This document shows, piece after piece, positions 5,783-53,399 of a stretch of DNA of 64,000 bases; position 1 is the stretch's first letter, and every line of letters begins with the position of its first letter. The stretch is taken from NCBI GenBank assembly GCA_026874595.1, contig CM049318.1, positions 43,008,456 to 43,072,455 of the forward strand, in the 5' to 3' direction. A program made the translations under genes and the position numbers. This DNA is from Sipunculus nudus. Taxonomy: Eukaryota > Annelida > Sipuncula > Golfingiida > Sipunculidae. A model generated the notes under the pieces. The model saw only the letters and a program-made list of their open reading frames with translations. It ran no database searches and was not told the DNA's origin.

Positions 5783-8700
5783 AAGAAGAAGAAGAAGAAG
5801 AAGAAGTTTATTCGACATAAAATTGTACATATCCATATATTGTATATTCAATGGTTTATATTTTTGTTTTTACTATGTCAGGAGACTGTTGTAAGGATTT
5901 TTTTTCCGCTGACACAACAGCCACCTGCAAACATTTGGTATAAGAAAGTATATATAACTATATAAATATGGATGATTGAACATGTTTGATACATTTACAA
6001 ATAGATGATAATAATTGTTTACAAAAATAGTGAAGGAGATTGAAAGAATTAATGGGTATTTATATGTTAGTTTGTTAATGGAGGAAAGGAAAAACAACGA
6101 AAAATTCTAATTTTTGTTACAGATGTAGCAGTTTGTTTGTGTGCAATTTTCTTTGTATGTATTTATAAAATCTTGTTTGGTGTAATTAATTAATCCTTGG
6201 AGGCTGTGGGTGTAGATTTTATCAGCAATGTTATGGTCAGTTTCATTTATGACTTTTGGTATTTTGTTCCTCAGACTATTGTCTGCTATTTTGGTTCTTG
6301 TTTTATTTGTAGCTAGGGTGTCTTTGTGTCTTGTGTTGTGTCTGTGCGTCATGTTTCTTGTCGATATATTAAACGTTAGGAAGAATTTTGGAAGTGCTGC
6401 ATGACAATAATTATAATAAAATTTTATTATGTTTAATTTGAAAATATCCTTGATTTTTAGGGTTTTTGATGATTTAAAGATTGGTTCTGTGTGTGCATTG
6501 TAGTTGTTATTTGTAATTATTCTTAAGGCTTTTTTTTGTAATTTTTCTAATCTATTTGTGTCAGAACCCCATATTAGGATTCCGTAATTTAATTGGGACA
6601 GAATAAGTGTATCATATATGGTTTTAAGTATGTGTATTGGTAGGTATTGTTTTAATTTATTTAGTACTCCTATGTATTTTGAAATTTTTGATGCAATTTT
6701 GTTTGTGTGTGTTTGCCATTTCATGTGTTCATTTATTGTTATACCCAAGAAATTGAAATCTGATACCCTTTCTATTGGTATTTTATCAATTTTGAGATCA
6801 GGGCTTCCATCTTTTAGAGTTTTATGTTTAGTATGAAAGATCATAAATTTTGTTTTTTGTACATTTAATGAGAGTTTATTAGCATTTAACCAGTTATGTA
6901 CTTTATTTAATTCTTTGTTGATGATGTGTTGGTCTTTTAGTTTGTTGAAACTTGCCAAGGGGTTAAATAATGTTGTATCGTCAGCGTATAGTATGAAATT
7001 AAAATAGTTGCTGCATTGATGTATGTCATTCATATATATTAAGTACAATAGAGGACCCAGGATTGATCCCTGGGGTACCCCGGTGTTTATTGGAAGTTTA
7101 TTTGATTTGTGTCCTTTGTAATCAACGTATTGCGTTCTGTTAGTTAGATAGTTAGTAAGCCATAGTAGAGTTTTTCCTTTAATACCGTAAAATTTTAGTT
7201 TATGTGTTAATATGTCATGATTTAAGGTGTCGAATGCTTTTGATCGGTCTAAATATATTGCGAGTGGCGTATTTCCATTGTCTATTTCTTTATATAGTCT
7301 GTCTGCTAATTCTAATATTGCGTGTTCGGTCGAGTGTTTTTTTCTGAATCCATATTGGCTGGTGTATATTAAGTCATTTGTTTGAAGAAAGTCGTATAAT
7401 TGATTGTATATTATTTTTTCAAATAATTTAGAAATGGTTGGTAATAGTGAAATTGGCCTGTAATTTTCAGGTTCATGAATACATTCTTTTTTGTGAATAG
7501 GGGTTATTTTTAGTTTATCAGGAAATATACCTGTAGTGAGTGACTGATTTATGATTATACTAAGAGGTCTGATAATGGCAGGACTAATTTTCTTAAGTAG
7601 ATTACTGGAAAGATTGTCATATCCTGTACTATTTTTTGGCTTGAGATTGTCAATTATGTTTTGTACTTCCGAGTCATTTACATGTTTAAAAGTTAAAAGG
7701 TTTTTAATGTTTGTACTTTGCTTTTTTTGTGTGTTTAGATATTTCTTGTAGTCTATTTTGTGACTGTTTTTTATTTTGTTTGCCATTTTTACTCCTATAT
7801 TCCCAAAAAAATTATTGAAATGATTAGCTATTTTTGTGGGATTATTTATTTTATCGCCTTTAATTATTACGTATTCGGGAAGGCTTTTTTTCTCTTTTCT
7901 TTGTATTATTTCATTGATTGTTTCCCATGTTTTTTTAATATCTGTTTTAGTCTTATTGAATTTATTGTTGTAGTAATGTTGTTTTGCTTCAAGTATTGTT
8001 TTTTTAAGAATTTTATTGTATTGTCTAAGTTGGTGTTTTTTTGTTGTGAATTCTATGCTATTTGTTTCTGCAGCTCTCATTGATTTATATAATGTATCTC
8101 TATATTTGATTGATTTAATGAGTCCAAAAGTTATCCAGTTTGTTTTTTTTGTCTTGTATTTGTTAAATTTTATTTTCTTTAAAGGCATGTTTTTATTTAT
8201 TGCTTGAGTCAGAATATTTTCTAGAATATTGTAATTTATATTTGGGTTAGAGGACATGTCTAGACTTATTTTATCAACAATTTTAGCGTTTGTCAAGTCA
8301 TTATGGAGGGAGTTTATGGTTTGTGGGGTGATGTTGCGCCTGAGGTTGTAGTGTTGTTTATTAGTTTTTATGTATTGAGCAGCTATATTAATGGATATGT
8401 AACATGGTAGGTGATCAGATATGTTGTTAATAAGAACACCTGACTGGCTGTGGCATGGTGGGACGTTTGAGAATATGTTGTCGATGAGTGTAGCTGAGGT
8501 GTCTGTGATGCGGGTCGGTATGGTTATGTTTGCGTGAAGTCCATGTGCGTGTACTGATTCCAAAAAGTTACGGTGTGCTGTTTTGGTTTTTATTTTGAGT
8601 AGATCTATGTTAAAGTCACCAGCTATAATTATGTCAGAGTTGTGTTTATTGATGTGATAGAGATGCATAGTTAGTTCTTCAATAAATTGGTTGATGTCTT

Positions 8701-9504
8701 CTATATTATTATTATATGGTGGTTTATATATATTGACTAGTTTGATAATTTTATTTGTCTCAGGTATCTTTACCTTTATAAATAATCCCTCCCAGTTTTC
8801 TGTTTTGATAATTGGTTGGTATATTTCATATTTAAATTTTTTATGTAGATATATTATTAGTCCTCCATGTTCTGTGCAGTGTTTGCCTTTGTGTATGCAG
8901 TTATAATTGTTTAGTTGTAGTGTACTTATGTCCGAGTCATTTTGTAACCACGTTTCTTGTAAGCATAGAGCACTGATTTCGATATTATTTGATATTAGTT
9001 CTTCTAGTAGTAGTGATATTTTGTCATGTTTTGCATTTATGCTTTGGCAGTTCAGTGATATTAATGTAAATTTATTTGGTTGTTTTAAGGTTTGGTTTAG
9101 TGTATCTGTAGTGTAGTAGAATGAGTTCGGGTTTTGGATTGTGTGTGTGTATTTATCTGTCTTGTTTTCAATTAAATTTCAGATTTTTGATAAATTATTG
9201 TTGGCTATTCCTCCAAAGTTTTTTAATATGTCTGCTTCATTTGACATGCTTTGATTAAAATTAATAATAATAATTAACCCACTAGGGAACTAAAGAGCGA
9301 CTGTTTGGAGGTAACAGCTGTGGTCAAAAGTATAGAAGTTAGGATCTTAGAATTAAGTTTATATAAATATTCTAGATAGTAAAATATAGATAATAACTGT
9401 ATATGTTACCAGATAGAACGGTTAGAGAGTAATAGTAACAAGTTCAGTAGTATCATGAAAGAAATTAGATTAGAAGTTTGATTTTGTATGCTTTAAAAGT
9501 TTAA
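5783..9504 (-). mobile_element. Non-LTR retrotransposon, CR1/L2-like (Jockey superfamily), nearly full length
   Basis: A 3.7-kb LINE lies in the same orientation as ARPC2, inside intron 5. From its 5' end (9504) it has a roughly 255-bp leader, one long ORF (9247-6107), a 300-bp 3' region and a (TTC)n tail read on the minus strand, seen as (GAA)n at 5783-5806. TCAGAAAG occurs immediately on both sides (5775-5782 and 9505-9512). Removing the element restores a copy of the surrounding dispersed repeat, so this is a true 8-bp target duplication. A microsatellite tail in place of poly(A) fits CR1/L2-type elements. No separate ORF1 was seen, so the insert may be 5'-truncated or lack ORF1. Clade placement is tentative. 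Confidence 0.88.
6107..9247 (-). pseudogene. LINE ORF2: endonuclease plus reverse transcriptase, one internal stop
   Basis: A 1,046-residue frame is interrupted by a single TGA at codon 23 (9181-9179); downstream it is open for 1,023 residues. An apurinic-type endonuclease fold is visible: SLNCQSIN, then LQETWL near 8960, then AGDFNIDL near 8610. Reverse transcriptase motifs follow in order: a PISLLPTISKLFEK block, SKAFDTLNHD, GVPQGSILGPLLYLIYMND, and the catalytic YADD at 6988-6977. The C-terminus ends in a cysteine-rich QTNCYICNKN. These domains nick target DNA and copy the element's RNA into the nick. If translation starts after the stop, the endonuclease is still almost complete, so the stop may matter little. 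The many plus-strand open frames across it are shadows. Confidence 0.9.
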
Positions 9505-12219: not shown

Positions 12220-12880
12220 TAGCATATACTGACACTTGGCAAGCCACTATGGTTTCTTCCATGCACCCTTATTGAGAAATGGACAAAAGGTGGTGCCACC
12301 TGTCTTCCGCAGAAGACAAAGCCATCCAAGATCTTTAGTTAATTTAATTTTTGGACCAATCCATGCATTCCTTTTTTGAGATATTTATGATTTTGTGTGA
12401 TTTTCACCATATATGGCATTATTTAAGGTCAAGGCCACTCTCATAGGAAAGGTCATGACCCCAATCTAAATATTCATCTTCCCATAACCCATGTCTATGT
12501 ATATGCATAATGTGAAAGAAACCTGTCCATTAGTTTTAGCCATCCAAGATCTTTAGTTAATTTAATTTTTGGACCAATCCATGCATTCCTTTTTGAGATA
12601 TTTATGATTTTGTGTGATTTTCACCATATATGGCATTATTTAAGGTCAAGGCCACTCTCATAGGAAAGGTCATGACCCCAATCTTAATATACATCTTCCC
12701 ATAACCCATGTCTATGTATATGCATAATATGAAAGAAATCTGTCCATTAGTTTTAGACTTATAATGCTCACAGTACTGTCAAGTGGCAATGATGGTGTTT
12801 TAAAGGTGCAAAAACAAGAAAAGGACAAAAGGTGGCGCCACCTGTCTTCCGCAGAAGTGCTTACAAGGAAAAAACATGCC
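12220..12880. repeat. Composite repeat with a 218-bp tandem duplication
   Basis: It starts with the CATATACTGACACTTGGCAAGC module shared with 39157 and 46170 and contains two GGTGGYGCCACC palindromes. A segment beginning GCCATCCAAGATCTTTAG at 12321 is repeated at 12539 with few differences, a period of 218 bp. Confidence 0.7.
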
Positions 12881-14120: not shown

Positions 14121-15243
14121 CGCTACAGCCAGATGCGCAACTGCCATATGCGCCAAATTCCAGTTGTGCCTCATGCCATATGCGCAACAAAGCTATATTA
14201 AGCCATAACGAGTCATATTACGTTGTGCTTATAGTAAGTTTGTATCTGTATCACACGGCCCCTACATAATTTTATCGAATGTGGTATATTTTTGCAACAA
14301 AATACGAGCTAAGAAACTCTTTTAGCATTTTCTTTTGAGGTATATGCGGATGGAATCGTATTGTATTCATATAAAATATTTTATATAGTACATGGTATAT
14401 TTTGCAGATAAATAAAAAGACACGGGTTAAAATTCCTGAAAATCAAACTCATAAAATAATGTCGATCTGGCGTCTTCCTTCTAGAATCGTCGAACCGTGC
14501 CGCTACTCTCAAGCAAGATGCAATGTTCAGTTGTGAATAGGATAACACAAAATAAAAAGATGTCGATTAAATCTGATTATTTACAGTTATTAGTGAATTT
14601 CATTAAAAATCCAACAAAACATTACGATGATGTTATTATATCGCAGTTATAACATGCAAGTGCGGTTATATAAGGGCTCATAATCCTTTTAATGTGCTCA
14701 TAACCCATGGACCGTCGCGACACCTTCCCTTTGATGTTCGGAGACCAAACCCGGCGGGGTTTTCAGGGTCAATTAAGCCATAGTGGTGAGTGGTTTCCTG
14801 TTTATCAGTAATACGTGCACTATCACCCACGAAGGCCGGACAATATGACACAATAAATTTCGCCCTTCATATAAATGTATGCCTTTTATCTATATGATAG
14901 TTCATTGTTGGTGTTTCTTAAGTAACGGTGACAAATAAATAAAAATATTCAATGTTCATTAATTTTTATTGACAGATAACGTGACTGTGTCATGGTGATC
15001 GACCGCACGTGTTGTGACAGCACATTGTCTCTCAAAATGGAAAGAGTTTCTTAGCTCGTATTTTGTTGCAAAAATATACCGCATTCGATAAAATTATGAA
15101 GGGGCCGTGTGATACAGATACAAACTTACTATTAGCACAATGTAATATGACTCGTTATGGCTTAATATAGTTTTGATGCGCATATGGCATGAGGCGCAAT
15201 TGGAATTTGGCGCATATGGCAGTTGCTCATCTGGCAGAAGCGT
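14121..15243. mobile_element. Element with about 200-bp terminal inverted repeats, no coding capacity
   Basis: 14121-14322 is the near-exact reverse complement of 15042-15243. Shared blocks include GGCGCATATGGCAGTTG, the TTATGGCTTAATATAG region and AAAGAGTTTCTTAGCTCG. About 720 bp of unrelated AT-rich sequence lies between. Extra GCGCAT-type motifs continue to about 15290 on the right only, so the true right edge may be further out and the left edge clipped. The layout is that of a foldback or long-TIR non-autonomous DNA transposon. No clear target duplication was found. It ends about 100 bp from ARPC2 exon 5's donor. Confidence 0.75.
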
Positions 15244-15341: not shown

Positions 15342-15528
15342 ATTGTTTCATCGTCTCGGTAATGGATCACAGCTCGCTTGTGTCCAGACTCTCCCTTCTC
15401 CTGAAATTCAAAATACTTCTCAAACACACTGGCAAAGCAGTTCCGCTTGAGCAGGCCTGCCTTGGTGATGAGCTCCTGGTACTGCTGAGATATCTGTTCC
15501 AGATCGAAAAGGATTGACACACTGTACC
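15342..15528 (-). CDS. ARPC2: ARPC2 coding exon 5 (largest in window)
   Basis: The 187-nt exon completes Gly and reads [12 protein letters not shown], a variable linker, then [18 protein letters not shown], a charged stretch, and [10 protein letters not shown]. It ends in two bases of the Met codon completed by exon 6. The [15 protein letters not shown] and [11 protein letters not shown] blocks are hallmark ARPC2 motifs linking its two alpha/beta domains. The donor is GTAAGTG. The acceptor is TTTTAG at 15529-15530. The first 18 exon bases and the acceptor are the first unit of a 49-bp tandem array that continues upstream to about 16116, so many near-identical potential acceptors precede the real one. 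An open frame continues into the array to 15640, but that part is repeat and not conserved protein. Confidence 0.95.
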
Positions 15529-16116
15529 CTAAAACAAAGCAAATGCATGTCACAAAATGTATTGACAATGACACACTGTACCCTGAAAAAAAGCAAACAC
15601 ATGTCACACAAAAGAACTGAAACACTGTACTCTGAAACAAGCCAAGCGCATGTCACACAAACAGACTGACACACTGTACCATGAAATGAAGCAAACATAT
15701 GTAACACAAAAGGATTGACACACTGTACCCTCAAACAAAGCAAATACATGTCACACATAAGGAATAACCCGCTGTACCCACAAACAAAGCAAACACATAT
15801 CACACAAAAGGATTGACACACTGTACCCTCAAACAGAGCAAACACATATCACACAAAAGGACTGACACACTGTACTCTCAAACAAAGCAAACATATATCA
15901 CACAAAAGGACTGACACACTGTACCCTGAAATGTCGCAAACATATGTCACACAAAAGGACTGACACACTGTACCCTGAAACAAAGCAAATACAAGTCACA
16001 CAAAAGGAATAACACGCTGTACTCTAAAACAAAGCAAACACATATCACACAAATGGATTGACACACTTTACCCTGAAACAAAGCAAATGTATGCCACAGA
16101 AAAGGACTGACACACC
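15511..16116 (-). repeat. 49-bp minisatellite built from the ARPC2 exon-5 splice acceptor
   Basis: Twelve units start at about 15511, 15560, 15613, 15663, 15711, 15760, 15809, 15858, 15907, 15956, 16005 and 16054, plus a partial at 16103. Read on the minus strand, each carries a T-rich tract, TTTGTTT(C/G/T)AG and GGTACAGTGTGTCA. That is the acceptor of exon 5 plus its first 18 coding bases. The first unit is the real intron-exon junction. Ten of twelve units keep the AG; those at 15663 and 15760 have lost it. Confidence 0.9.
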
Positions 16117-16795
16117 CAGACATGGGGTCTATTACAGTTGTTCTATTACTATTACTATTACTATTCTGATATTACTATTACTATTACCACATTTTATCTT
16201 CTGTTACTATTACTATTACTATTACTGGGGTACCTATTACTATTACTATTACTACTACTATTACTTAAACTGATTGGAGGATTCTAGACCTTGCGCAGCC
16301 ATGAGTGCTTTAAACTAGCACTTCAATCACATGTTTAAATAATGTTACAAGCACCTATATCATCCAGTTACCTACACAATTTTCTTATACTGTGTCTGTC
16401 ATTCACAAGAAGCCTGAAGATACTGGAGACCTTAATTATTTCAGCTTCTTTAATTCTGTTTTTTTTTTTTGTATCTTGAAACCTCATTGATCCTTATCTG
16501 TCTATTAACATCAAACATGCCTCTGTTTATCCATGGTTTATTAATCAAAAGTCAGATTGTGCCAGGTAACTTATTTGGCTGTGACCTACTCTGTCCAGTA
16601 CTCTTATGTAATTAGCACCAGTGGTCACTAGCAATGTGGCAGCTGGCCCATGCTTGCCTCAACAATAGACACATCCTGGGCAATTACTGGATATTTGCTG
16701 AGATGCTTCATGATCAAGGGGCTCACAGGAAGTAATAGAAAGTAATATGTATTACTCTATTACTTTGCCTTCTGTTTCTATTACTATTACTATCA
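16117..16795 (+). mobile_element. hAT-like CAGACATGGGGT element, copy A (deleted and right-truncated)
   Basis: The left terminus CAGACATGGGGT and the (TATTAC)n subterminal block match the full copies at 50111, 52973 and 59987. About 1.3 kb of the interior is missing, with left and right parts joined near 16498. The right TIR is replaced by CTCATTTTTTATAAC at about 16795. It interrupts the last minisatellite unit. Confidence 0.8.
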
Positions 16796-16869
16796 AAGCT
16801 CATTTTTTATAACTTATAAGCAGAACATATAATATAAGAGTTAAACTATTTATTAAAAAAATTACAAAT

Positions 16870-17544
16870 TGTGATGTATGTCCGTACGCGATGGCAGGGC
16901 ACTCACGGAAGGACCTTAGAACCATTGACCCAGGAACAACAGGAACGCGTTGACCCGTGTCGCTTACAGTCATCTATTGAACTCCCGCAACAACAAATAA
17001 ACGGACAAAGAGAACGTTTTCATTCATTCATTAACAGCGGTTAAACAACCTGAACTGGAATTTAAAAGTGGATCGATCGATATTGCGTTAAGGTCCACAG
17101 ACACTATAAATACCCTTCATTTAGTGATTTTGAATTGGGTTGCAAACAAGAACTGATATCCAGGGATATCCAGGCCTGATGATGTGTAGTCTCCTTGTGA
17201 TAAGGCGGAGACATTTTGGACGTTTTGGACTTTATTATGGCTGTGCACGGATTATGAACTGAACTTTCGTCATGACTCCTCAGAGCAACCCTGGAGTCAT
17301 TTTTATTTCGTCGAACCAGCACCAGTGACTTTGATTTACAGCAGATAAGTATTTCTTCATTTTGTACCGCACCAAGATTTAGGTATTATGTGTTAGAGAC
17401 TTTGTGTTCATGTATTGTATATATTGTAAATAATGTTTGTTTAAATAATTATATATATTTTGTACTATATTTGTGAGTCAGTTTTTCATTTAACAGCTTC
17501 GTTGTGTGAGTGGAACTCGGGGATGTTTTGTGCTACACGCAACA
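16870..17544 (+). repeat. 5' LTR of the Gmr1-like element
   Basis: 675 bp, TGTGATGTATG to ACACGCAACA. A TATAAATA box lies at 17105-17112 and probably drives element transcription on the plus strand. By eye it differs from the 3' LTR at about nine substitutions and one single-base gap, about 1.3-1.5%. Confidence 0.92.
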
Positions 17545-17549
17545 TAAAA

Positions 17550-17563
17550 TGGGGGCTCGTCCG
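17550..17563 (+). promoter_or_regulatory. Primer binding site, tRNA-Pro type
   Basis: TGGGGGCTCGTCCG, five bases after the 5' LTR, is complementary to the 3' end of tRNA-Pro over its first 14 bases. The following bases (CTTGC) no longer match. It would prime minus-strand DNA synthesis. Confidence 0.8.
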
Positions 17564-17834
17564 CTTGCTTTTCTCTTTTTGGCTCGTTTTCTTTAGGGGT
17601 ATGAATTGGGGTTATTTCTACATTTTTCAAATCATTTTTCTATTTTGAGTATTGATTCAAATATCATAGAGTTTCATTTTTGATGTGAATTTCTAAAGTA
17701 AGAAAGACTCACAGTAAACATTAGTAACATTGTAGTAGATTGTATAATCATATATTTTTTAGAAATAAGTATTTCATATAGTAGAATATTGGTTATTTCA
17801 TATTTTTATATGATAAACTCATAAAAAACTCAAA

Positions 17835-18941
17835 ATGGATATTGATAAATTTATAGTTAATCCCACTACGCAGGTCTTAGACCAAATGAAAAAGGTTGAG
17901 TTATTGGAAACTTGTAACAAATTAAATATAGAAGGAAAACAGTCAATGAGAAAGTCAGAATTAAAAAGGAGAATTGTAGATAATCTTGTGGATAATGATC
18001 TGTTTGAGGATTCCGTTTTGGGATTGTACCCTCCAGAACCACAAAAAGGTGCTGACTCTGGTCAATATGAATATCAATTTAAATTAAAAGAATTAGAAAT
18101 AAATAGAGAACTACAAATGAAAGAACTAGAGTTAAAAGAACTAGAACTCAAACTAAAATTTGATGAGGATAAAAAAGAAAATTCTGCAACGGGTGGAATT
18201 TTAGACCCTAACAGATATATCAGATTAGTTCCCTCATTCAATGAAAAAGAAGTAGATAAATTCTTTCTACACTTTGAGAAAATCGCTAAAAATCTTAGAT
18301 GGCCAATAGAGTTGTGGCCTGTTCTGGCACAAAGTGTATTCACTGGAAAAGCCCAAGAAATATATTCTTCTTTATCTGTAGAAGAATGTTCAAATTATGA
18401 ATCTCTCAAATATGCTATTCTTCATGCATATGAATTAGTGCCTGAAGCTTACAGACAAAGGTTTCGAAATTTACGGAGAACATATACTCAAACTCATGTT
18501 GAATTTGCTCATGAGAAAGAGGTACTTTTTGAGAAATGGTGTAACTCAAAAACCGTGAATTCAGATTATGAGAAATTTAAACAACTGATATTAGTTGAAG
18601 AGTTTAAGAAATGTATTAGAGATGATATTAAGACATATTTAGATGAGAAGGAAGTAATCACGTTACAACAAGCGGCAAAATTTGCCGATGAATTAGCTTT
18701 GACTCATAAGAGTAAATTTGATAAATCAAGAGAAGTTGGTTTTCAAAGACCAAGAAATGTAAATGGTAGTGACAAAAAGGGGAGTCCACCTTGACCCAGA
18801 AAAGAATTTTCTGAGGGTAAAAAGGGTGAGACAAGTGAAAAACCCAGATTGAGGACTGGACCTATCTGCTATTATTGTAAGAAACCAGGACATGTTATGG
18901 CTACATGTCTGAGTCTCAAAAAGAATAGAGACAAGTCTTAA
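17835..18941 (+). pseudogene. gag: gag of the Gmr1-like element: SAP-like, coiled coil, SCAN-like CA, zinc knuckle; internal TGA
   Basis: The first 319 residues (17835-18794) hold an N-terminal SAP-like helix pair (about 10-55), a Glu/Leu/Lys-rich coiled coil (about 76-116) and a capsid core. From residue 206 (YRQRFR) to about 288 there is a SCAN-like five-helix segment with EEFKKCIRDDIKTYL and AAKFADEL. A TGA at 18792-18794 interrupts the frame. The same frame then continues 48 codons to TAA at 18939-18941 and holds a CCHC knuckle (CYYCKKPGHVMATC). Gag packages element RNA into virus-like particles. The TGA may be a CGA-to-TGA mutation; programmed read-through is less likely given the other lesions. 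SCAN domains are reported to derive from Gmr1-like gag, which supports the family call. Confidence 0.85.
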
Positions 18942-18963
18942 GGAAACGTCACCAAATGCACTC

Positions 18964-20238
18964 GTGAATACATACGAGGGCTTGCTTTGTGAACCTCCAT
19001 CAGGGACAGTAGGTTTAAAGGATCCTGTCATTGTGGGAAAGAATAATGACTTTCAGGCTATTCGTAAAGAATTTAAGCCTTTTGTGTCAGAGGGTTTTGT
19101 ATCTTTAAAAAGGGACAGTATTGAACCCGTACCAATCAAAATTCTAAGAGACACTGGAGCGTCTCAGTCTCTATTGTTAGAAAGTGAATTACCTTTCTCT
19201 GATGAGACGGCAACCGGAGAAATTGTATTGGCTCAGGGTATTGAAGGTTCTATTGTTACAGTACCTTTGCACGAAATTATTTTAAAGTCAGGGTTGGCGT
19301 CAGGTCCTGTTAAGGTCGGGATTTTGCCTAGCTTACCCGTAAAGGGAGAGTCTTTATTATTGGGGAATGATTTGGCGGGAGGAAATGTGACGGCTTATCC
19401 TTGTATGGTTTCTAAGCCGAGTACTGACATTATTGATAAGGCGGAATATGAAGAAATATTTCCGGCCTGTGCGGTCACTCGAGCGATGGCTAAAAAAGCC
19501 GATATGGTGGCCGGGAGAGTCACCAATAATATGGCCGTGGACAATAGTTCCACTGTTAAGGCCAATGATATGGCTGTGACGAGAGATGTCACTGGTAAAG
19601 CCAATTATACGGCCGTGGACAAAGGTTCCACTGTTAAGGCCGCACCTAGGGCTATTGATAGCACCATTACGGCTGTGGATGGGAATTCCACTGTTAAAGT
19701 CGATATTAAGGTGGACGTAGATTCCACTGATGAAAAAGCCAATACGGCTATGGTTCATAGGACCAAAAATGATGATAATACGCCTACTGATATTAAAGCA
19801 GATAGAAATATTGTAGATGATGATGTGATAGATTTATCACAAACATTCATGAATGTCACTAACCATGATAATGACCAACCAGCGCTTTCTCGTTCTCAAT
19901 ATGAGAAAAGAGCTGAGAAAATATCGGATGAGACTTTTCCTTTAGGGAATAGGGATAATCTTTTGAAAGAACAAAAGAATGATACAGGTCTTGCACATTT
20001 ATATGATTTGGTATTACCGAGTGAAGAGTTAGACAAGGTATCATCAGGTTATTTCATACTAAATGATATTTTGATGAGAAAATGGAAACCTAAAGATATT
20101 CCCTCAACAGAGGACTGGGCTACAGTAAATCAGATTGTGATTCCTGAAGTGTATAGATCAGAAATAATGAAGATAGCCCATGAATCACCTTTGTCAGGAC
20201 ATTTTGGTGTAAACAAGACTAAAGAAAGGATACTATAA
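18964..20238 (+). pseudogene. pro: Protease, repeat-rich linker and start of integrase (frameshifted)
   Basis: This frame differs from gag's. A retropepsin active site, RDTGASQSLL, has its Asp at residue 63 (19150). A flap and a C-terminal LLLGNDLAGG motif follow, the usual layout of an aspartic protease that cleaves the polyprotein. Residues about 185-270 are degenerate repeats of the type AVDNSSTVKA / AVDKGSTVKA / AVDGNSTVKV, not recognised elsewhere. The C-terminus enters the integrase zinc domain (AHESPLSGHFGVNKTKERIL), giving the two His of HHCC. It then stops at TAA (20236-20238), where the family sequence continues in another frame. The first Met is only the first available one; the true junction with gag is unknown. 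Confidence 0.85.
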
Positions 20239-21427
20239 GGCATTTCTTTTGGCCAAGAATGAATCAAGATATAGCTAGGTTTTGTAAAACTTGTCATACT
20301 TGTCAAATGGTAGGAAAATATAATCATGATTCACCAAAAGCTCCATTACAACCAATTCCAGTCATGGAAGAAGCCATGTCTAAAATTATTATAGACTGTG
20401 TTGGTCCAATGTCAAAAACTAAAATGGAAATCAATATTTGTTGACCATCATGTGTACTGCAACAAGATTTCCAGAGATCATTCCTTTGAGAAATATCAAA
20501 ACCAAAACTATCACTAAAGCTTTGATAAAATTCTTTACAATGTTTGGTATGCCTAAAGAAATTCAATCAGATCAAGGGTCAAATTTTACATCTGGATTAT
20601 TACAACAGTTGACAAATGAATTAGGTGTTAATCAGATCTTGTCAAGTGCATATCATCCGCAATCCCAGGGTGCTTTAGAGAGATTTCATTCTACTCTGAA
20701 AACCATGTTGAAGACTTATTGTTTTCATAACAAGAGGGATTGGGACGAAGGGGTCCCGCTATTGTTATTTGCGGTTAGGGATTCAGTCCAGGAGTCACTC
20801 GGATTTACTCCGTTTGAACTCATGTTTGGCCACACTATTAGAGGCCCATTGAATGTAATCAAAGATCAATGGCTTAGTGAACAAAACAGACGGAAAACCG
20901 TTTTAGATTATGTGGTCACATTCAAAGAACGGTTGAATGATACATGTGAATTAGCAAGACAGAATTCGACTAAAGCTCAAACCAAGATGAAAACATGGTA
21001 TGATAAGAAAGCAAGACATCAGGAATTGAATGTAGGAGATAAGGTACTTGCATTGTTACCAAGTAAAGAAGGTCCATTACAATCAAGATATCATGGACCC
21101 TATGAGATTTATAGAAAGATTAACAATGTCAATTACATCATCAAAACTCCAGACAGACATAAGGGAACTCAATTATGTCATGTGAATATGCTCAAACCAT
21201 ATTTTGAGAGGAACGATACATTAGTGAAACCTGTTTGTATAACATCTGATGATAATGAAATATCAGAAACTACTGATATTTTCAAAGATTTTGAAACAAG
21301 TGAAGACAAGAATGAAAAACCAAAATTAGGTAATTCAGAGATATTGGCAAACTTAGATGTGAAACTAGAACATCTGTCGTCTGAAAAATCTCAAGATTTG
21401 TCAAAATTGTTGAGAAAATATAAATAA
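20238..21427 (+). pseudogene. int: Integrase of the Gmr1-like element (upstream of RT)
   Basis: Two frames make one integrase. The first, from about 20238 to 20444, gives HFFWPRMNQDI, the two Cys of HHCC (FCKTCHTCQ) and the first catalytic Asp (IIIDCVGP, 20394). A shift near 20438 leads into the second, with SDQGSNF (Asp at 20570), GALERFHS (Glu at 20678; D-35-E spacing) and a GPYEIYRKINNVNYII C-terminal SH3-like block at about 21095-21140. It inserts element cDNA into chromosomes. It ends at TAA 21425-21427, which looks like a mutation inside a K-Y-x-IFPDVP sequence, because RT continues in the same frame directly after it. Its position before RT is the unusual feature. Confidence 0.88.
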
Positions 21428-22276
21428 ATATTTCCAGATGTACCTAGTAGAACAAATGTTATATATCATGATGTGGATGGCGGTGATGCAAAACCAATAA
21501 AACAACATCCATACAGGGTTAATCCCGAAACTCTTGCCAACTTAAGAAAAGAAATAGATTACATGTTACAAAATGACATCATCAGAGAGAGCCAAAGTGA
21601 ATGGAGTTCTCCATGTATATTAGTTCCAAAACCAGATAAAAGTTATAGATTTTGTACTGATTTCAGAAAAGTGAATGCTGTAACTAAAACAGATACGCAT
21701 CCCATACCAAGAGTTGATGATTGTATAGATAGGATTGGTAAAGCTAAATATGCAACAAAATGTGACTTACTGAAAGGATATTGGGGTGTTCCTCTGACTG
21801 AAAGAGCGAGAAAGATCTCTGCTTTTGTTATTCCTGACGGATTATATGAATATAACTTAATGCCGTTCAGAATGAAGAATAGTGGAGCTTCATTCCAACG
21901 TTTGATTAATATTTGTATAAACCATCTTGAAGGTGTTGAAGGTTACATTGATGACTTGATTGTATACAGTGATACGTGGTCTGAACACTTGTATAGACTT
22001 GAGAAACTGTTTCAAAGACTGGCTGAAGCTAATCTTACAGTTAATTTGGCAAAAAGTGATTTTGGGAAGGCCAAGGTCATTTATTTAGGTCATGTCATAG
22101 GACAAGGTGATGTAGAACCTATTCAAGCCAAAATTGAGGCCATTATCAATTTCCAGAGACCTAAATCAAAAAAGAGTTTACAAAGATTTCTAGGCATGAC
22201 TGGGTATTATAGAAGGTTTTGTAAAAACTTTACTGAGATAACTACCCCTCTCACAAATTTGTTAAAGAAAAAGTAG
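21428..22276 (+). pseudogene. pol: Reverse transcriptase of the Gmr1-like element
   Basis: In the same frame as the preceding integrase, after its TAA, RT starts with IFPDVPSRTNV, then KQHPYRVNP, IIRESQSEWSSPCILVPKPD and FCTDFRKVNAVT. Next come LKGYWGVPLTERARKISAFV and LMPFRMKNSGASFQRLIN. The catalytic YIDD is at 21944-21955, and the thumb has LQRFLGMTGYYRRFCKNF. These are gypsy-type motifs. The usual Asp in the D-L-x-x-GY block is present (CDLLKGYW). A TAG at 22274-22276 ends the frame, while the same frame goes on into RNase H. It copies element RNA into cDNA. Confidence 0.9.
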
Positions 22277-22656
22277 ATATATATTTGGACTGATGACTGC
22301 GAAGCAGCATTCGAGAAATTGAAGTCGATGATGATCAATACACCTGTCTTGAAAGCACCTGATTTTGACAAAGATTTTAAGTTATGTGTTGATGCTAGCG
22401 AACAAGCAGCTGGTGCTATATTGATTCAAGAAGATAAACAAGGGATTGATCATCCTGTCTGTTATTTCTCTAAGAAATTTAAAGATTACCAGAGAAATTA
22501 TTCCACCATTGAAAAAGAATTATTGGCGCTTATCTTAGCACTGCAATATTTTGAAATCTACTCTTGAGTCTACTCTTACAAGAGTATGACATCAATGTGA
22601 AACACATAAGAGGAAAGGATAATGTCATCGCTGACGCATTATCTAGATGTTATTGA
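22277..22656 (+). pseudogene. RNase H of the Gmr1-like element with internal deletion
   Basis: After the TAG the RT frame continues with IYIWTDDCEAAFEKLKS, LCVDASEQAAGAILIQ (catalytic Asp), VCYFSKKF and STIEKELLALILALQYFEIY. It then meets TGA at 22565-22567. From 22576 another frame gives LQEYDINVKHIRGKDNVIAD to TGA 22654-22656, the normal end of the domain. About 50-60 residues between IY and LQEYD are missing, and CTACTCTT occurs twice at the join (22559-22577), suggesting deletion between short repeats. The nuclease would remove RNA from RNA:DNA hybrids, but this copy is inactive. Confidence 0.82.
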
Positions 22657-23070
22657 TAAATTTGTATATGAATTGTATTGTTAGAGATAGGTATGGATGA
22701 AGATGTTACATTGAGATGCAGTAGCTATTATGCATTATAAGCTCGTAGGATGAATTGTGCATTAGTCACAGGGATATTATTTTGCACAAGTCGTAGTAAT
22801 GTTCGATGGTTGTGTGAGTTATTAGTGTGTGTATTATCACAGTGAAGTTAAAATGAATTGGATAGATTATTTGCATATGTTTGCAAGAAAAGAAATGATG
22901 GCTATTGATGTCAATTATAAATGATATTGTAGATTATAAAAATTTATATCCTCACGTTAACATAATTATATTTCTCATATATATATCATATCACCCAAAG
23001 GTATATATTTCAGATATTATAAAATTTTACTCATGAAAATATCATAAAATTTTCTTTTTTAGGAGCATGG
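22657..23070 (+). other. 3' non-coding region of the Gmr1-like element
   Basis: AT-rich, stop-filled 410 bp between RNase H and the 3' LTR. The bases just before the LTR (AGGAGCATGG) are a short, interrupted purine tract in the polypurine-tract position. Confidence 0.6.
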
Positions 23071-23744
23071 TGTGATGTATGTCCGTACGCGATGGCAGGG
23101 CACTCACGGAAGGACCTTAGAACCATTGACCCAGGAACAACAGGAACGCGTTGACCCGTGTCGCTTACAGTCATCTATTGAACTCCGGCAACAACAAATA
23201 AACGGACAAAGAGAACGTTTTCATTCATTCATTAACAGCGGTTAAACAACCTGAACTGAAATTTAAAAGTGGATCAATCGATATTGCGTTAAGGTCCACA
23301 GACACTATAAATACCCTTCATTTAGTGATTTTGAATTGGGTTGCAAATAAGAACTGATATCCAGGGATATCCAGGCCTGATGATGTGTAGTCTCCTTGTG
23401 ATAAGGCGGAGACATTTTGGACGTTTTGGACTTTATTATGGCTGTGCACGGATTATGAACTGAACTTTCATCATGACTCCTCAGAGCAGCCCCGGAGTCA
23501 TTTTTATTTCGTCAACCAGCACCAGTGACTTTGATTTACAGCAGATAAGTATTTCTTCATTTTGTACCGCACCAAGATTTAGTTATTATGTGTTAGAGAC
23601 TTTGTGTTCATGTATTGTATATATTGTAAATAATGTTTGTTTAAATAATTATATATATTTTGTACTATATTTGTGAGTCAGTTTTTCATTTAACATCTTC
23701 GTTGTGTGAGTGGAACTCGGGGATGTTTTGTGCTACACGCAACA
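23071..23744 (+). repeat. 3' LTR of the Gmr1-like element
   Basis: Direct copy of 16870-17544 with about nine substitutions and one gap. It begins TGTGATG and ends ACGCAACA, then AAAT. Confidence 0.92.
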
Positions 23745-23748
23745 AAAT

Positions 23749-26110
23749 ATTGTCCCAAATATAATTTTTATTAAAAATAATAAGAGAATAGTATGATTTT
23801 TTCAAATAAAATATAACTGCAATGATTATTAAAATAATATTAAAGAATATATTTATGAATGCATTCATTAATACATTTTGAAAGTATTTGCACTGGTATT
23901 CATATACTTTCATTTTTACCTGAATTCCCATTCTTATGAAAGAAATTTTATAATGAGGTACATATTCATATTCGTGTTTAAATATAATTGCAAAGTATTC
24001 GCACCATGTCTGGTATTTATTCAGTTTTCACAAAACAATGATGTTGAGAATCCAGAATATACAAAATTCACACATTTAAATAATGATCATAAGTACCTGG
24101 TTTTATGGCTTTTATTTATATTAAAAAAAATGTAATATATTCATTTTGGACTAATTTCACATCAATGCACTAACTATAGACACAAAAGAAATCTAGATAA
24201 TAATATTATCAACTGCATCTTTGTCTATCATTTATTTCCTTCATATGATCCCTAATGATTAGTAATGAATAATATGATTTACTTTTTTATCATTAAAATT
24301 GAACTGAAAAATACCATAGGTGACTGCATGGTGTTATTTGGAATACATGACATTCTATCCATCGATACAACATTCTTATATCATCGGTAACTGGAAGCTG
24401 ATTTCCTGTTATTATCAACTAACAAATTCCTTTTCTATTTTTCTTTAATTTGTTATTAAAAACCAATAAAAATTTATAAATTTATTGTTTATTCTTATGT
24501 TGTTGGTTAAAACTACTAGATGAGTCGAGTTGGACACCTGGATCAACTGTGGCTGGCAATAAGCTGCCTGGAGCCCCAGTGTATGCCTCGCCTCAAGCAT
24601 GCATAATTTGCTGAAAGTTCAACAAGGTCAACATACAGGTGACTCAAGAGGTGCTACAGAGAGCCAAGGTTTGACATGGTCTCATAAAATCATTAATAAA
24701 AGCTACAATTTTTGGCCAATTTCTTTCATCTTTTTAAACTAAAAAGCTGATATCTTTATGTGTGCATGATATGAAAATTATATCAACAGTGCTCACAGGA
24801 AACAAACATGCCATGGTCAAATTTGGGCAAAATGTAAGGTACTTATTTTATATTTATACTAATAACTTATAAAATTTGAAAAATTCAGAACTAATTTTGG
24901 GTATTCAATTGAATCTTGATTAAATAATGTTACATCCCTGACAAAAAATCTCTAGCTTCAGTAATCCTCTTGTTAAGGGAGTAAATATATTTCTTGATTT
25001 TTTACAAAGTGCATTATGTTTGGGCCCATAACTTAAAACAATTACGCAATACTGACATCATTTCTGGCATGTGCATAGAGAATGTATAGAAAAATAAATA
25101 TATTATATATGATTAAAGTCAGATCAGTGGTTTTGATATTAGGCAGTCTTGAAGTGTAACAATGGGTTTTTAATGGAAAAATGAAGTTTTTCATTAATAT
25201 CTCGAAGGTATTAAGTCCTAGTGACCAAATTCTTGGTATGGTAGGGGATTTTTGAGACATCTAATTGCATGCCAAATTTTAGGAACTGAGAGCTGAAGCT
25301 GGGGAGCTGAGCACTTGCAAACTGCATGACACTAGCTTCATGTAAACAATATGTTACATGGTGCTTGAAAATTTGAATAAAATCTACAGTTTTTGATCAA
25401 CTGGTTTCAAATTTTTGGTGTTTACAGACAAAATGCTAAAAAAAACATGCTGTGAAAATTAAATCCACAGTACTTACAGGAATAAAACGTGCCATGGTCA
25501 AAGTTGGGCAAAATTTAAGGTACCAATTTTTTTTTTATTTTTGTTTATATTTTAAAAAATTTAAAAGATTTTGATTTAATTTTGGGTATATAATTTAATT
25601 TTGATAAATTAAAGTTATATTACTGGAAAAAAAAGTTTATAGCTTTAACATATTTTGTGTTAAGTGATCAAATATCTTTCCTGATTTTTTACACAATGCA
25701 TTATGTTTGGGCCCTAACTTTTTAAATTTACATAATACAAATATAATTTCTGGCATGTACATAGGAACTATATAGAGGAATAATTATGGTAAATATGAGG
25801 AAAAACAGATGAGTGGTTTTGATATTAGGCAGTCCTGAAGTGTAAAAATAGGTTTTTAATAAAAAATTGAGGTTTTTCCTTAATTTCTAAAAGGAACGAA
25901 GTCGCAAAGACCCAGTTTTTGGCTTGGTAGGAGATCTTGGGGACATCTAACATTATGCCGAATTTTGGATTCCTAGGTCATATGGTTTCAAAACGTGCCA
26001 CATCTATGGACGGACAGATGGAGGGACTGACGGACGGACAGACGGACGGACGACAGACAATGGACCACAACTATAGCTCAGATGACTTATAGTCAGCTGA
26101 GCTATAAACC
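23749..26110. repeat. 2.3-kb dispersed repeat block, copy 1 (carries the LTR element)
   Basis: Together with 16800-16869 this matches 30940-33194 over nearly its whole length, from ACTTATAAGCAGAACATATA to the CTATAGCTCAGATGACTTATAGTCAG end. The Gmr1-like element sits inside it. No coding content was recognised, and its open frames recur in copy 2 as shadows. Confidence 0.8.
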
Positions 26111-27150
26111 TATCCTAGATTATTCTTGTAAAGAATTATACCATTCAGCTTGACAGTTTCATCATAAAAGAGGCTAAAATTACAAGGTTTCTGACTGCTA
26201 GAAACAGGTCAATGTATGTGGCGCCACAAAAACTGCAATTTCAAATATGAGTCAGGTGACCGACATTTGCACAAAACTGATCAGATAATGGAGCTTTTGT
26301 AACAAATTTTTTATAATTCTCGGGGGTTCTTCTGAGATCAATAGCTCGTAGGATATGGGAAACACGGACCTAATTTCAGGTTTCCTATGAGAAGTTTCAT
26401 GGACCTCCCTGGATGTCAGGTAAGAAGATTATAGGTCCGAAGGTTATGATTTGTTCCCTGTTAACGGACAACCCGCTTCATTTGCGGGTCTCAAAAATAG
26501 CAAAAAAATGCGTGAAAATTTGAAAAAAAATCCAGGCGGTGCCACCAGTCTGCAGGAACTGAGCTCCATGACCAATATGCATGCAAAGAATCATGACCAT
26601 CAATGCATTAGTACAGATACTGGAGCTTTTGTTTCAAATATTTAATTGTTCTGGGGGGGGGGGGGGTACTTTCAGGCCGCATAGCTCAGAGGAATTGGAT
26701 AACAGAGACCTAATTTAAGGTTTCCAAGGTGATTTTTTTTATGAACCTCTGTGGATGTCAAATTTTAGGTCCAATGGTTATGACTTGTACCCTCTTAATT
26801 GATGACCTGACAGCCGGACAGACAAATGACAGACAAAGAGAGATAGCTATAACTCAGATCACTCTCAGTCAGCCAAGCTAAAAACAGATCAGTGGTTTTG
26901 ATATTAGGCACTCTTGAAGTGTGATAAAGATTTTAAATGGAAAAAAAGATTTTCCTTAGTTTCTCAAAGGAACCAAGTAGCAGTGACCAGGTTTTCGGTT
27001 TGGTAAGAGATCTTGGGGACATCTAACAGTATGCAGAATTTTGGATTCGTCGGTCCAACGGTTTTAAATCATGCCAGTCTAATGGACCCAAAGGCGAACG
27101 GACAATTGACCACGACTATAGCTCAGATGACTTATAGTCAGCTGAGCTAA
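26110..27150. repeat. Dispersed repeat units with palindrome-type ends
   Basis: Two to three units of the ATTCTGGGGGG / ACCTCCCTGGATGTC family are present, with a poly-G run at 26655-26667 and a further piece of the 2.3-kb block. It ends near 27140 in ACTATAGCTCAGATGACTTA and GTCAGCTGAGCTAAAA. Confidence 0.6.
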
Positions 27151-27781
27151 AAATCCACCAATGAAATTCAGCATTGTATTGGTGACCCATGTATGCCAGC
27201 GCATATCTCTCATCTGCCATGTTTGTACAACCGAAAAGACTTGGGTCAACCAATATTGATACTCATTGGTGGAATCAGTCATGTGGTGTGGAATTCCCAC
27301 TATTTGCAAAAGGTTCATGAATGGATCTAAATACTTGCCATTCTGATCATGTCTTGCAGGAAGTGCCCCACAGAGCTGCGCAGCCGGCACACATTCATGG
27401 TGCAGCTGGTGGCTCCTGATTTAGGTGTCCCTCATGACAGGATTTTGGACCAAACATGACTTTCCCTGGCTGCCTTTAGCAGGTGTCTGCTCAAGGTAGG
27501 TCAATATCAGTGGAAAATGGGTCTGGACAATAGACCTGTGTCCGTACACTGCAGGTATCCACTAATGCCAGGGTCCCCTCACGACAGATACTGCTGAACA
27601 CTAATTTTCTAAATGTACTGTTTTATTACAAAAATCCAGGAATAATTATTTTTCCGAGTTTGAACTGAATGAGACTGGATTGTATGTTTATTTGCAGTAT
27701 TAAAATAAAACCATCCCCTCTCCCCCTTTTGGAATATACTAGAGGGTGATGAGGAGGGGTTTACTGTGGCTGGTTTCTTAC
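27150..27781. other. Intron 4 next to exon 4, nothing recognised
   Basis: A relatively GC-rich single-copy-looking intron stretch. A 103-codon minus-strand open frame (27079-27390) has no recognisable domain. No inverted repeats were noticed. Confidence 0.4.
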
Positions 27782-46169: not shown

Positions 46170-49050
46170 CTGACACTTGGCAAGCAATTATTGTTTCTTC
46201 CATCTATCAATCAATAATCCTTTTGAAGATGTTGGTCCAGTGACCTTGACCTTTGACCTCATGACCCCAAAATCAATTGGGGTCTTGCTTTTTCAATTGG
46301 ACATATATAGGTCAAGTTTGAAATCTATACATCAATAAAAGCAGGAATTATCATCCAGAAACTAATTTTTTGACAGATGGCTCCTGTAGCATTGACCTTT
46401 GACCTCGTGACCCCAAAATTGATATTGATCATCCACTTTGATATATATAAATCAATAGAGGTCTAGATTTATTGATGGGCCAAATATAAGTCAGGTTTGA
46501 AATCCACATATTAATCCAAGCTTGAATTGCCATCTCGGGAACTAATTTTTGGACAGATGGCTCCTGTGACGTTCACCTTTGACCTTGTGACCTTACAATT
46601 AACAGGCGTCTTCCTCTATTGGCAGGGGAACTGTATGTGCAAGATGAAATGTCTGAGATGAAATGTTTGGCTGAAAATGCATCCACAATCTTTTTAACAA
46701 TGTGTCCTGTGACCTTAACCTTTGACCTCATCACCCCAAAATCAATTCGGGTCTTGCTTTTCCAATGGGTCATATACAAGTCAAGTTTGTAATCTATACA
46801 TCAATAAAATCAGGAATAATCATCCAGAAACTAATTTTTGGACAGATGGCTCCTGTGACCTTCACCTTTGACCTTGTGACCTCAAAATTGATAGGGTTCT
46901 TCCTCTCTTGGCAGGTGAACTATATGTGCAAGATGAAAGATTTGAGATGAAATGTTTGGCTGAAAATGCATCCACATCTTTTTAAAGATGTGTCCTGTGA
47001 CCTTGACCTTTGACCTCATGACCCCAAAATCAATTCAGGTTTTGCTTTTTCAATGGGACATATACAAGTCAAGTTTGAAATCCATACATCAATAAAGGCA
47101 GGAATTTTCATCCAGAAACTAATTTTTGGACAGATGGCTCCTGTGACCTTCACCTTTGACCTTGTGACCTCAAAATTGATAGGGGTCTTCCACTCTTGGC
47201 AGGTGAACTATATGTGCAAGATGAAAGATCTGAGATGAATTGTTTGGCTGAAAATTCATCCACAATCTTTTTACAGATGTGTCCTGTGACCTTGACCTTT
47301 GACCTCATCACCCAAAAATCAATTCGGGTCTTGCTTTTCCAATAAAAGCAGGAATTATCATCCAGAAACTAATTTTTGGACAGATGGCTCCTGTGACCTT
47401 CACCTTTGACCTTGTGACCTCAAAATTGATAGGGGTCTTCCACTCTTGGCAGGTGAACTATATGTGCAAGATGAAAGATTTGAGATGAAATGTTTGGCTG
47501 AAAATGCATCCACATCTTTTTAAAGATGTGTCCTGTGACCTTGACCTTTGACCTCATGACCCAAAAATTAATTCAGGTTTTGCTTTTCCAATGGGACATA
47601 TACAAGTCAAGTTTGAAATCCATACATCAATAAAGGCAGGAATTTTCATCCAGAAACTAATTTTTGGACAGATGGCTCCTGTGACCTTCACCTTTGACCT
47701 TGTGGCCTCAAAATTGATAGGGGTCTTCCACTCTTGGCGGGTGAACTATATGTGCAAGATGAAAGATCTGAGATGAATTGTTTGGCTGAAAATTCATCCA
47801 CAATCTTTTTACAGATGTGTCCTGTGACCTTGACCTTTGACCTCATCACCCAAAAATCAATTCGGGTCTTGCTTTTCCAATAAAAGCAGGAATCATCATC
47901 CAGAAACTAATTTTTGGACAGATGGCTCCTGTGACCTTCACCTTTGACCTTGTGACCTCAAAATTGATAGGGGTCTTTCTCTATTGGCAGATGAACTATT
48001 TGTGCAAGATGAAAGGTCTGTGATGAAATGTTTGGCTGAAAATGCATCCACAATCTTTTTAAAAATGTGTCCTGTGACCTTGACCTTTGACCTCATGACC
48101 CCAAAATCAATTGGAGTCTTGCTTTTTCAATAGGACATATATAGGTCAAGTTTGAAATCAATACATCAATAAAAGCAGGAATTATTGTCCAGAAACTAAT
48201 TTTTTGACAGATAGCTCCTGTGGCCTTGACCTTTGACCTTGTGACTCCAAAACTGATATGGATCATCCACTATTGGCAAGTGAGCTATATAATCAAGATG
48301 GAAGACCTGGGATGAAAGTTTGGCTTAAAATGCATCCACAGTATCTTTTAAGATGCGAGTCCAGTGACCTTGACCTTTGACCTCATGACCCTGGAACCTA
48401 TAGGGTTCTTACTTTAGTGGTGGACCATACATAAGTCACGTTTGAAATCCATTGGCTATCAACACTACAGATATCATAAGAGGTGTGTGATTTTCACCAA
48501 ATATGGACACATTAAAGGTCAAGGCCACTCTCATGCTAAAGGTCATGACCCAAATGTAAATAGACCTCATCCCATAACCCATCTCTCTACATGTGCATAA
48601 TATGAAAGAAATCTGTCCATTAGTTTTTGACTTATAATGCTTACAGTACTGTCAAGTGCCAATTATGGGGGTATTACAGACGTAAAAACAAGAAAAGGAT
48701 AATAGTTGGCGCCACCAGTTTCCAGTATATCACAAGGCTATCCAAGATCTTTGGTCTTCTTGATTTTTGGACCAGTCCATGCAAGCTTACTTGAGATATT
48801 TAAGAATTTGTGTTATTTTCAGCAAAAATGGACCTATTCAAGGTCAAGGTCACTCTCCTAGCAGGTGTCATGACCCCATTTTAAATAGGCTTCGTCCCCT
48901 TACCTATATCTATAAAAATGTAAAGTTTGAAAAAGATCAGTGAAATATTTTTTGAGTTATCCCGTTCACAAGGTTTTTCTGCGGCAGTGGCAAGGGTGGC
49001 AGGACCCTTGTGTAACCATAGTATCCCGACTTTGTCTGGGGATACAATTA
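46170..49050. repeat. Tandem array of about 288-bp TGACCTTGACCTTTGACC units with hairpin-type end
   Basis: After the ACTGACACTTGGCAAGC head come about nine units carrying CCTGTGACC, TTGACCTTTGACCTCATGAC, TCAAGTTTGAAATC and GGACAGATGGCTCCTGTGAC. Units at 46765 and 47053 are 288 bp apart. A two-unit block of about 538 bp (47053 and 47591) is nearly identical. The array passes into a GTTGGCGCCACC core (48708) and ends with GTATCCCGAC...GGGGATACAATTAT near 49020-49045. Three 61-codon open frames here are the same repeat read three times. Confidence 0.8.
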
Positions 49051-50110: not shown

Positions 50111-52212
50111 CAAACATGGGGTCTATTACAGTTGTTCTATTACTATTACTATTACTATTACTTTCAATTTCTGATATTACTATTACTATTACTATTGCCA
50201 CATTTATCTTCTATTACTATTACTATTACTATTACTGGGGTATCTATTACTATTACTATTACTATTACATGTACTTAAACTAATGGTAGGATTCTAGACC
50301 TTGCGCAGCCATGAGTGCTATAAACTAGCACTACAATCACATGTTTAAATAATATTAAAAGCAACTATATCATCCAGTTACCTATACAATTTTCTTATAC
50401 TGTGTTTGTCATTTACAAGAAGCCTAATAATACTGGAGATCTTAATTATTTCAGCTTCTTTAATTCTGTATTTTTTAATATTTTGAAACCTCATTGATCG
50501 TTATTGGGGTGTTTCAAGTTGATATTATAAGATAATTGTATGAACTCATGAATACATGTAATTTAAAGCAACCCATTGTAAAGGCCTTGGCATATGTAAA
50601 ATATTGATTTATAATTATATGCATACTTGTACATTTTATATTATTTTCATATATATTCCACATAAATTTATTTATAGTACATACTTCTGTTTAGATTAAA
50701 TCTCCGTTCTCATAGTCAATAAATAAAAATTTTCAGTGTAACTAAAATTGTCTCCAGAGGAATTATTCATGATTATTGCATATTATTATTTAGTATCAAA
50801 GCTGACAATTCAATCCTTTATGTATGTATCAGGATAGGAATTTATTTAGGGCTGTGTCCTGTTTCCAAATCCTTATAAATATATCCAATAAATATACTGT
50901 TTATGTCAAGGTTCTGGACAGAACCAAACTGGAGACAAAAGTACCCCATCTTCTTGGTGTATATGTTCATTTGGATGTGATGCCATGTTTTATTCCATCA
51001 CATAATACATCTGGAGAGTGAACAGAGAGGTGGTAAACTTTACAATAATGGAAGCAAGCATGGCTTTTATTCTTCAGGCATGCCCTTCTTCATTGCAGCA
51101 AAACAAGCATAGGATGATTTAGGAATATGGAGAGTGATTTAAACTTACATCAATTTTACAAAACAAAAAAATATTATTTAAATCACTTTCACAATAAATT
51201 TAGTATTAAACAATCTTGTACTTTAAATTTTGTACATAACAGGATCTAATTATTTGATATCAAAATTTCAGATATTAAATAATAAAATATGAACAGTTAC
51301 TTATATTCTCATATTATATAATCAAATAAATTAATATCATGAAAAAATGGTTCATTTAATTTTCAAAATATAAATTAACATAATTTTAGATACTGAATGA
51401 AGGTCTGCAAAATTGGTACTATGAAATAACAGACAAGAATTAAAAGAATAGTTTTAAAAGAATATGTATATAAATTAACTAGATAATACATGTGCCTGCA
51501 GTATGACTTTATCCAAGTGATTGTAGTACTGGTCTGAGTTTATAGCATTGTAGGCTTCAGTACATTATGGGTAGTGAAAACACCATAAGCTTATCATGAA
51601 CATTTTGGGTCTGCACTGTATCTGGTTCCATATTATATTTTTCTTGAAAGTATATTATTGCAATTTGTATGATTAAAATGCAAACTGGCTTGTGAAAACA
51701 AATCTGATTACATTTCAGAATATGCATATGGATTGATGGATGTGAGATAAGATGTACATGTCACAATAATAAAACACTATATTTATCTGTCTCTTAACAT
51801 CAAACATGCCTCTGTTTATCCATGGTTTACTAATCAAAGGTCAGATTGAGCCAGGTAACTTATTTGGCAGTGACCTACTCTGTCCAGTACTCTTATGTAA
51901 TTAGCACCAATGGTCACCAGCAATATGGCAGCTGGCCCATGCTTGCCTCAACAATAGTCACATCCTGGGCAGTTACTGGACAAGAACTGAGTCTGTTCAG
52001 CATTATTTGCTAATATGCTTAATGATCAAGGGGCTCACAGGAAGTAATAGAAAGTAATATGTATTACTCTATTACTTTGCCTTCTGTTTCTATTACTATT
52101 ACTATTACAGCTCAAATTTTTGAGTCTATTACTATTACTATTACTATTACATGGAAAAAGCTGTGATAGTCTATTACTATTACTATTACTTATTACTATT
52201 ACCCCATGTCTG
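50111..52212 (+). mobile_element. hAT-like element, copy C, 2,102 bp
   Basis: It begins CAAACATGGGGT (one mismatch) and ends ACCCCATGTCTG. A perfect 8-bp duplication, TTATATAC, flanks it (50103-50110, 52213-52220). (TATTAC)n blocks lie inside both ends, in the same rather than inverted orientation. The interior is AT-rich with no transposase, so it is non-autonomous. Confidence 0.9.
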
Positions 52213-52972: not shown

Positions 52973-53332
52973 CAGACATGGGGTCTATTACAGTTGTTCT
53001 ATTACTATTACTATTACTATTACTTTCAATTTCTGATATTACTATTACTATTACTATTACCACATTTTATCTTCTGTTACTATTACTATTACTATTACTG
53101 GGGTATCTATTACTATTACTATTACTATTACATAAACTGATAGGAGAATTCTAGACTGTGCGCAGCCATGAGTGCTATAAACTAGCACTGCAATCACATT
53201 GTTATATTATATATTAATATTAAAAGCACCTATATCATCCAGTTACCTACACAATTTTCTTATACTGTGTCTTTCATAAACAATAAGCCCAATGATACTG
53301 GAGATCTTAATTATTTCAGCTTCTTTAATTCT

Positions 53333-53399
<67 letters not shown>

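Follow-up and report, generated by a model that had tools for sequence, protein, structure and literature searches.

A minisatellite whose unit spans an intron-exon boundary lies directly in front of exon 5 of ARPC2, an actin-regulating gene, on the minus strand of the window (i.e. the whole 64-kb stretch of DNA analysed here). The array is 610 bp long and is built from a 49-bp unit, in which about 27 nt from the end of intron 4 are joined to nucleotides 1-22 of exon 5. With the real acceptor counted, the AG dinucleotide is intact at 10 out of 12 unit ends. In our judgement this is probably a splice-boundary minisatellite of the mirage kind, in which the acceptor abutting the exon is the one mostly used and the upstream copies are tolerated as decoys. 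The coordinates of the features are given in Table 1.

Table 1. Location of the array, its units, the host gene and the adjoining element within the window.
Feature	Position	Strand	Description	Basis
Minisatellite array	15507..16116	minus	12 units 5' of exon 5 plus the 22-nt exon start	TRF, unit cuts, profile
Unit 1	15529..15582	minus	54 bp, adjoins exon 5; acceptor TAG at 15531-15529	
Units 2-11	15583..16072	minus	ten units of 49 bp	unit cuts at AG
Unit 12	16073..16116	minus	distal end cut off by the dispersed element	
+54 acceptor AG	15583..15584	minus	sole intact upstream acceptor with a kept, open frame; 18 residues added	
Dispersed element, (CTATTA)n core	16117..16497	plus	adjoins the distal array edge	
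ARPC2 exon 1 (from ATG)	63011-62938	minus		gene model
ARPC2 exon 2	35636-35602	minus		gene model
ARPC2 exon 3	29782-29724	minus		gene model
ARPC2 exon 4	27881-27782	minus	upstream splice partner; phase GAC G/GG TAC with exon 5	
ARPC2 intron 4	15529..27781	minus	12,253 bp, ends in the array	
ARPC2 exon 5	15528-15342	minus	187 nt	Pfam, tblastn, gene model
ARPC2 exon 6	1657-1564	minus		gene model

The host gene is ARPC2, as an earlier sequence-only reading had proposed: the P34-Arc domain of Pfam was found for exons 4 and 5. The gene model comprises exons 1-6, the remainder of the gene lying beyond the window. When joined, these exons give an open frame of 183 codons; exons 2-6 are each preceded by AG, and every exon is followed by GT. 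Exon 5 itself is a coding exon of ordinary character. Flanked by large introns, exon 2 is a micro-exon of 35 nt, and its acceptor is weak, scoring 2.38 on a rough matrix. Among the matches listed, ARPC2 identity is 83% to a JGI protein, 80% to Uloborus and 77% to Branchiostoma belcheri. Since the last value is only 77%, the host is probably not a Branchiostoma species; a tree of 23 ARPC2 proteins gave no firm placement, and a pairing with Branchiostoma was not rejected (p 0.289). The start of exon 5 encodes GYSVSILF, and the commonest residues at this place in the homologues are GYNVSLLF (119 anchored sequences, from the best 120 of 1339). Because the motif at the exon start is conserved among the homologues, exon 5 presumably came first and the array was derived from it, in agreement with the earlier suggestion that a coding boundary had seeded the satellite.

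TRF, run on the window, reports a repeat at 15507-16115 with a period of 49, 12.3 copies, 80% matches and a score of 739. Cutting the array at the AG gives 12 units: ten measure 49 bp, one measures 54 bp and the one at the distal end is incomplete. A profile built from the units matches the 64-kb window at 13 places, namely the 12 units and the start of exon 5 itself (15528-15507, E 7.7e-5); no further unit copy was found in the window up to E 50. A 49-bp unit repeated about 12 times in front of exon 5, as first described, is confirmed, and the real acceptor is indeed the end of unit 1, where the TAG abuts the exon. The location and the distal end proposed earlier (15511..16116) also stand, and the proper span begins at 15507; the exon-derived part of the unit, put at 18 bases before, measures 22 nt. 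The consensus of the units is GGTACAGTGTGTCAGTCCTTTTGTGTGACATGTGTTTGCTTTGTTTCAG, and the 22 nt with which it starts correspond to nucleotides 1-22 of exon 5. This exon start is identical in the units at 15729 and 15827 and has 1-6 mismatches in the remaining ten. The AG, which the earlier reading had likewise counted in ten units, is lost at 15680 (AT) and 15778 (TG), and 11 of the 12 units retain a TNAY resembling a branch point, the A of which lies 22 nt upstream. All length change within the array is confined to unit 1 (net +5), and the initial 5 nt or so of unit 12 derive from the neighbouring dispersed element. Of the 11 boundaries of ARPC2 exons 1-6, ten match themselves alone, and repetition is confined to the acceptor of exon 5.

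Nine intact acceptors lie upstream of the real one, and we designate them by the number of nucleotides that each would add to the exon. Eight of them run into a stop after the junction, at codon 26 in six cases, at codon 2 for +544 and at codon 71 for +103. The sequence-only reading expected that only every third acceptor would keep the frame, but this does not hold. The +201, +348 and +495 acceptors are at multiples of 3 and yet meet a stop at codon 26 past the junction, whereas +54 is in frame because unit 1 is 54 bp long, and its frame is open. Nor is the array NAGNAG-like, as had also been suggested, since its acceptors are 49-54 nt apart rather than 3 nt. Recursive (ratchet) splicing was considered and set aside, AGGT occurring 0 times on the minus strand of the array.

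The acceptors were scored with an approximate matrix, which gives a rough ranking only. By this approximate measure the exon-abutting acceptor scores 6.72 and is surpassed by four out of nine upstream acceptors, namely +54 and +446 (both 10.88), +544 (7.75) and +103 (6.88), the other five being lower (0.82-5.81). On the same approximate scale the four remaining acceptors of ARPC2 obtain 2.38, 6.75, 8.41 and 11.5, and as a true acceptor of this gene is as low as 2.38, a low score is no bar to use.

The strongest alternative is regular use of the +54 acceptor. The GYSVS motif would then be repeated in an insert of 18 residues encoded by part, or even most, of the ARPC2 mRNA, and the exon would be growing by absorbing a unit of the minisatellite. 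Apart from its open frame and its higher score, this site has a CAG preceded by an unbroken T tract, as compared to a TAG and a T tract interrupted by a G at the exon-abutting site. The net change of +5 falls solely in unit 1, and nowhere else would it restore the frame. Other points speak against this alternative. An insert at the start of exon 5 was found in 0 out of 120 ARPC2 homologues (best 120 of 1339), although all of these are from other species and tell us little about the present one. The ranking comes from a rough matrix, on which the true exon 2 acceptor reaches only 2.38. Restoration of the frame would occur by chance in about 1 in 3 cases and was spotted post hoc; a net change would fall in unit 1 by chance in about 1 in 12, and edge units diverge more in any case. 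Moreover, the insert would be hydrophobic and would lie within a conserved part of the protein. On balance we think regular use of +54 unlikely. We hold it to be just as doubtful that the array is creating a new variant, with +54 being used and indels or changes in copy number shifting the border of exon 5.

A different kind of question is whether the acceptors in the array have been retained by selection. The mean column identity of the units is 0.886, from which 9.4 out of 12 AGs are expected to survive, and 10 are observed. Of the 48 neighbouring column pairs, the AG pair included, 30 are kept equally well or better. Because the observed number is close to the expected one and so many column pairs are as well kept, the retention of AG is about that of unselected decay and there is no sign of selection on the AGs; column conservation thus does not support selection for acceptors. 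This bears on the proposal that selection maintains the array as a decoy, or 'poison', by which stop-bearing transcripts reduce the output of ARPC2. The stops after 8 of the 9 intact upstream acceptors, and the ten AGs still present, speak for it, but the retention matches the neutral expectation and two AGs are gone, and we consider the proposal very improbable.

The differences among units speak about the history of the array. Pairs of units differ by 3-15 out of 49 bases, and units 6, 7 and 8 mutually differ at only 3-4. With unit 12 left out, the mean number of differences is 6.2 between units that are five apart and 8.6-9.0 at lags of 1-4 (p 0.014 for the five-unit lag, from shuffled unit orders in each of which the best among lags 2-7 was chosen). 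As pairs at a lag of five are closest on average, a duplicated five-unit block fits the history of the array.

For the favoured reading, a splice-boundary minisatellite with tolerated decoys, the following course of events may be envisaged. A stretch of about 27 nt at the end of intron 4, together with the adjoining 22 nt of exon 5, would have been duplicated in tandem, perhaps aided by a TTTT held in common at the junction. The copies would then have increased in number through unequal exchange, in part as a block of five units. Each unit would constitute a whole acceptor, with a putative branch point (the TNAY), a T-rich tract and the AG. Most transcripts would use the acceptor that abuts the exon. 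Slips to eight of the nine intact upstream acceptors would lead to early stops and presumably to removal by nonsense-mediated decay, while a slip to +54 would give the in-frame insert. A mostly normal ARPC2 mRNA is expected because amphioxus mirages are reported without disturbed regular splicing: according to the authors, their RT-PCR, like the Adh3 data, suggests that regular splicing is not interfered with (PMC3087553). This analogy is drawn from amphioxus genes and one human allele, i.e. from other organisms. Since four of the nine upstream acceptors outscore the exon-abutting one on the approximate matrix, some use of them would be predicted, against the mirage default.

The dispersed element next to the array has a sharp start, CAGACATGGGG, at 16117. 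Five other copies occur in the window (50111-50504, 44654-44291, 52973-53336, 59987-60349 and 59209-58893), and the copies share this start, one having CAAACATGGGG instead, in unrelated surroundings. This neighbour has tandem repeats of its own, which lends something to the idea that a dispersed satellite, or the tandem portion of some mobile element, landed at the exon by chance and that the unit stems from it. However, the element's other five copies within the window are without the array and stop at the same border, so the array was rejected as a part of the element; zero units are found elsewhere in the 64 kb, and the unit holds 22 nt of conserved coding sequence, which together make this origin highly improbable. 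Least credible of all is an assembly artefact: although there is a single assembly, and an amphioxus mirage was misassembled in a genome draft, the units differ from each other in a way that duplicated reads would not, even if the copy number may be off.

Much of the length of intron 4 consists of insertions such as this dispersed element and an LTR retroelement (16870-23750) whose ends are 98.2% identical. In the LTR retroelement the integrase domains (around 20143-21200) precede the reverse transcriptase and RNase H, and a match to a SCAN domain lies within the first frame. This domain order in a Ty3-like element recalls, we assume, that of Gmr1 elements. Intron 5 holds a LINE-type open frame (6107-9178, minus strand, 1023 codons) with endonuclease and reverse transcriptase, the closest relatives of which are about 49% identical (best 120 of 806). 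Just downstream of exon 5 there is an inverted repeat of about 203 bp (15040-15242 and 14322-14120, 94.6% identical). Long-period tandem repeats are also present in the ARPC2 introns, at 12320-12756 (217 bp), 46475-47343 (288 bp) and 47628-48132 (250 bp).

One acceptor is present here in a dozen graded copies whose frames are known, and nature thus offers a test of spliceosomal choice among nearly identical acceptors. The +54 site is of particular interest as it would reveal whether splice-boundary repeats can extend an exon. If it were used, an exon of a core Arp2/3 subunit would have been caught in the act of growing by way of a splice-boundary minisatellite.

It is useful to compare the array with repeats that affect splicing in other systems, as these are described in the excerpted texts. 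The human TERT repeat VNTR6-1 is an intronic minisatellite that acts via G-quadruplexes about 3.5 kb from the exon (PMC11830802), and CeRep25B of C. elegans is an intronic minisatellite the effect of which on splicing is tied to motif content (PMC4039745). Both are linked to splice choice, as may be the case here, but in neither excerpt is the exon's own acceptor repeated, unlike in ARPC2 (PMC11830802, PMC4039745). Closer in kind is the human CBS allele 844ins68, a duplication of the intron 7/exon 8 junction that gives mostly normal mRNA (PMC2630376, PMC1334203). The sites concerned are called donors in the text of PMC2630376 and a 3' splice site in a title cited there. Like the array it has similar acceptors in tandem (two of them); unlike the array it is one polymorphic duplication of 68 bp (PMC2630376, PMC1334203). 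Human minisatellites at exon-intron boundaries are described as able to alter splicing (PMC2812944). These are likewise minisatellites at boundaries, with units of about 30 bp in about four copies, but they lie in segmental duplications and mostly concern the formation of new introns, and the excerpted account includes no acceptor array preceding a constitutive exon (PMC2812944).

The nearest counterparts are the mirage minisatellites of amphioxus, found in Adh3 and in the globin genes BflGb6 and BflGb9; in BflGb6 the 3' end of an intron is repeated together with the 5' part of the exon (PMC3087553). The resemblance extends to several features. Firstly, both are minisatellite-like tandem duplications across an intron-exon boundary of the host gene. 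Secondly, splice signals are kept: many amphioxus units retain them as potential cryptic sites, and here the AG persists in most units (PMC3087553). Thirdly, the inner units are homogenised and the edges are not (PMC3087553); in our array identity to the consensus is lowest at the edges, 0.80 in unit 12 and 0.86 in unit 1, although unit 5 ties the latter (0.86). The differences, as far as the excerpted description goes, are in the gene (ARPC2 as opposed to Adh3 and globins), in the copy number (12 units as compared to 6 and 3 in two BflGb6 haplotypes) and in the unit length (49 bp as compared to 150-160 bp in BflGb6 and 10-72 bp in Adh3) (PMC3087553). The kind of repeat is therefore already known from the earlier descriptions of mirages and of human boundary repeats. 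What the present array adds is a further case in a gene that is widely conserved, from an animal that is probably not a Branchiostoma species, so such arrays would not be limited to the amphioxus and human genes described in the excerpted texts.
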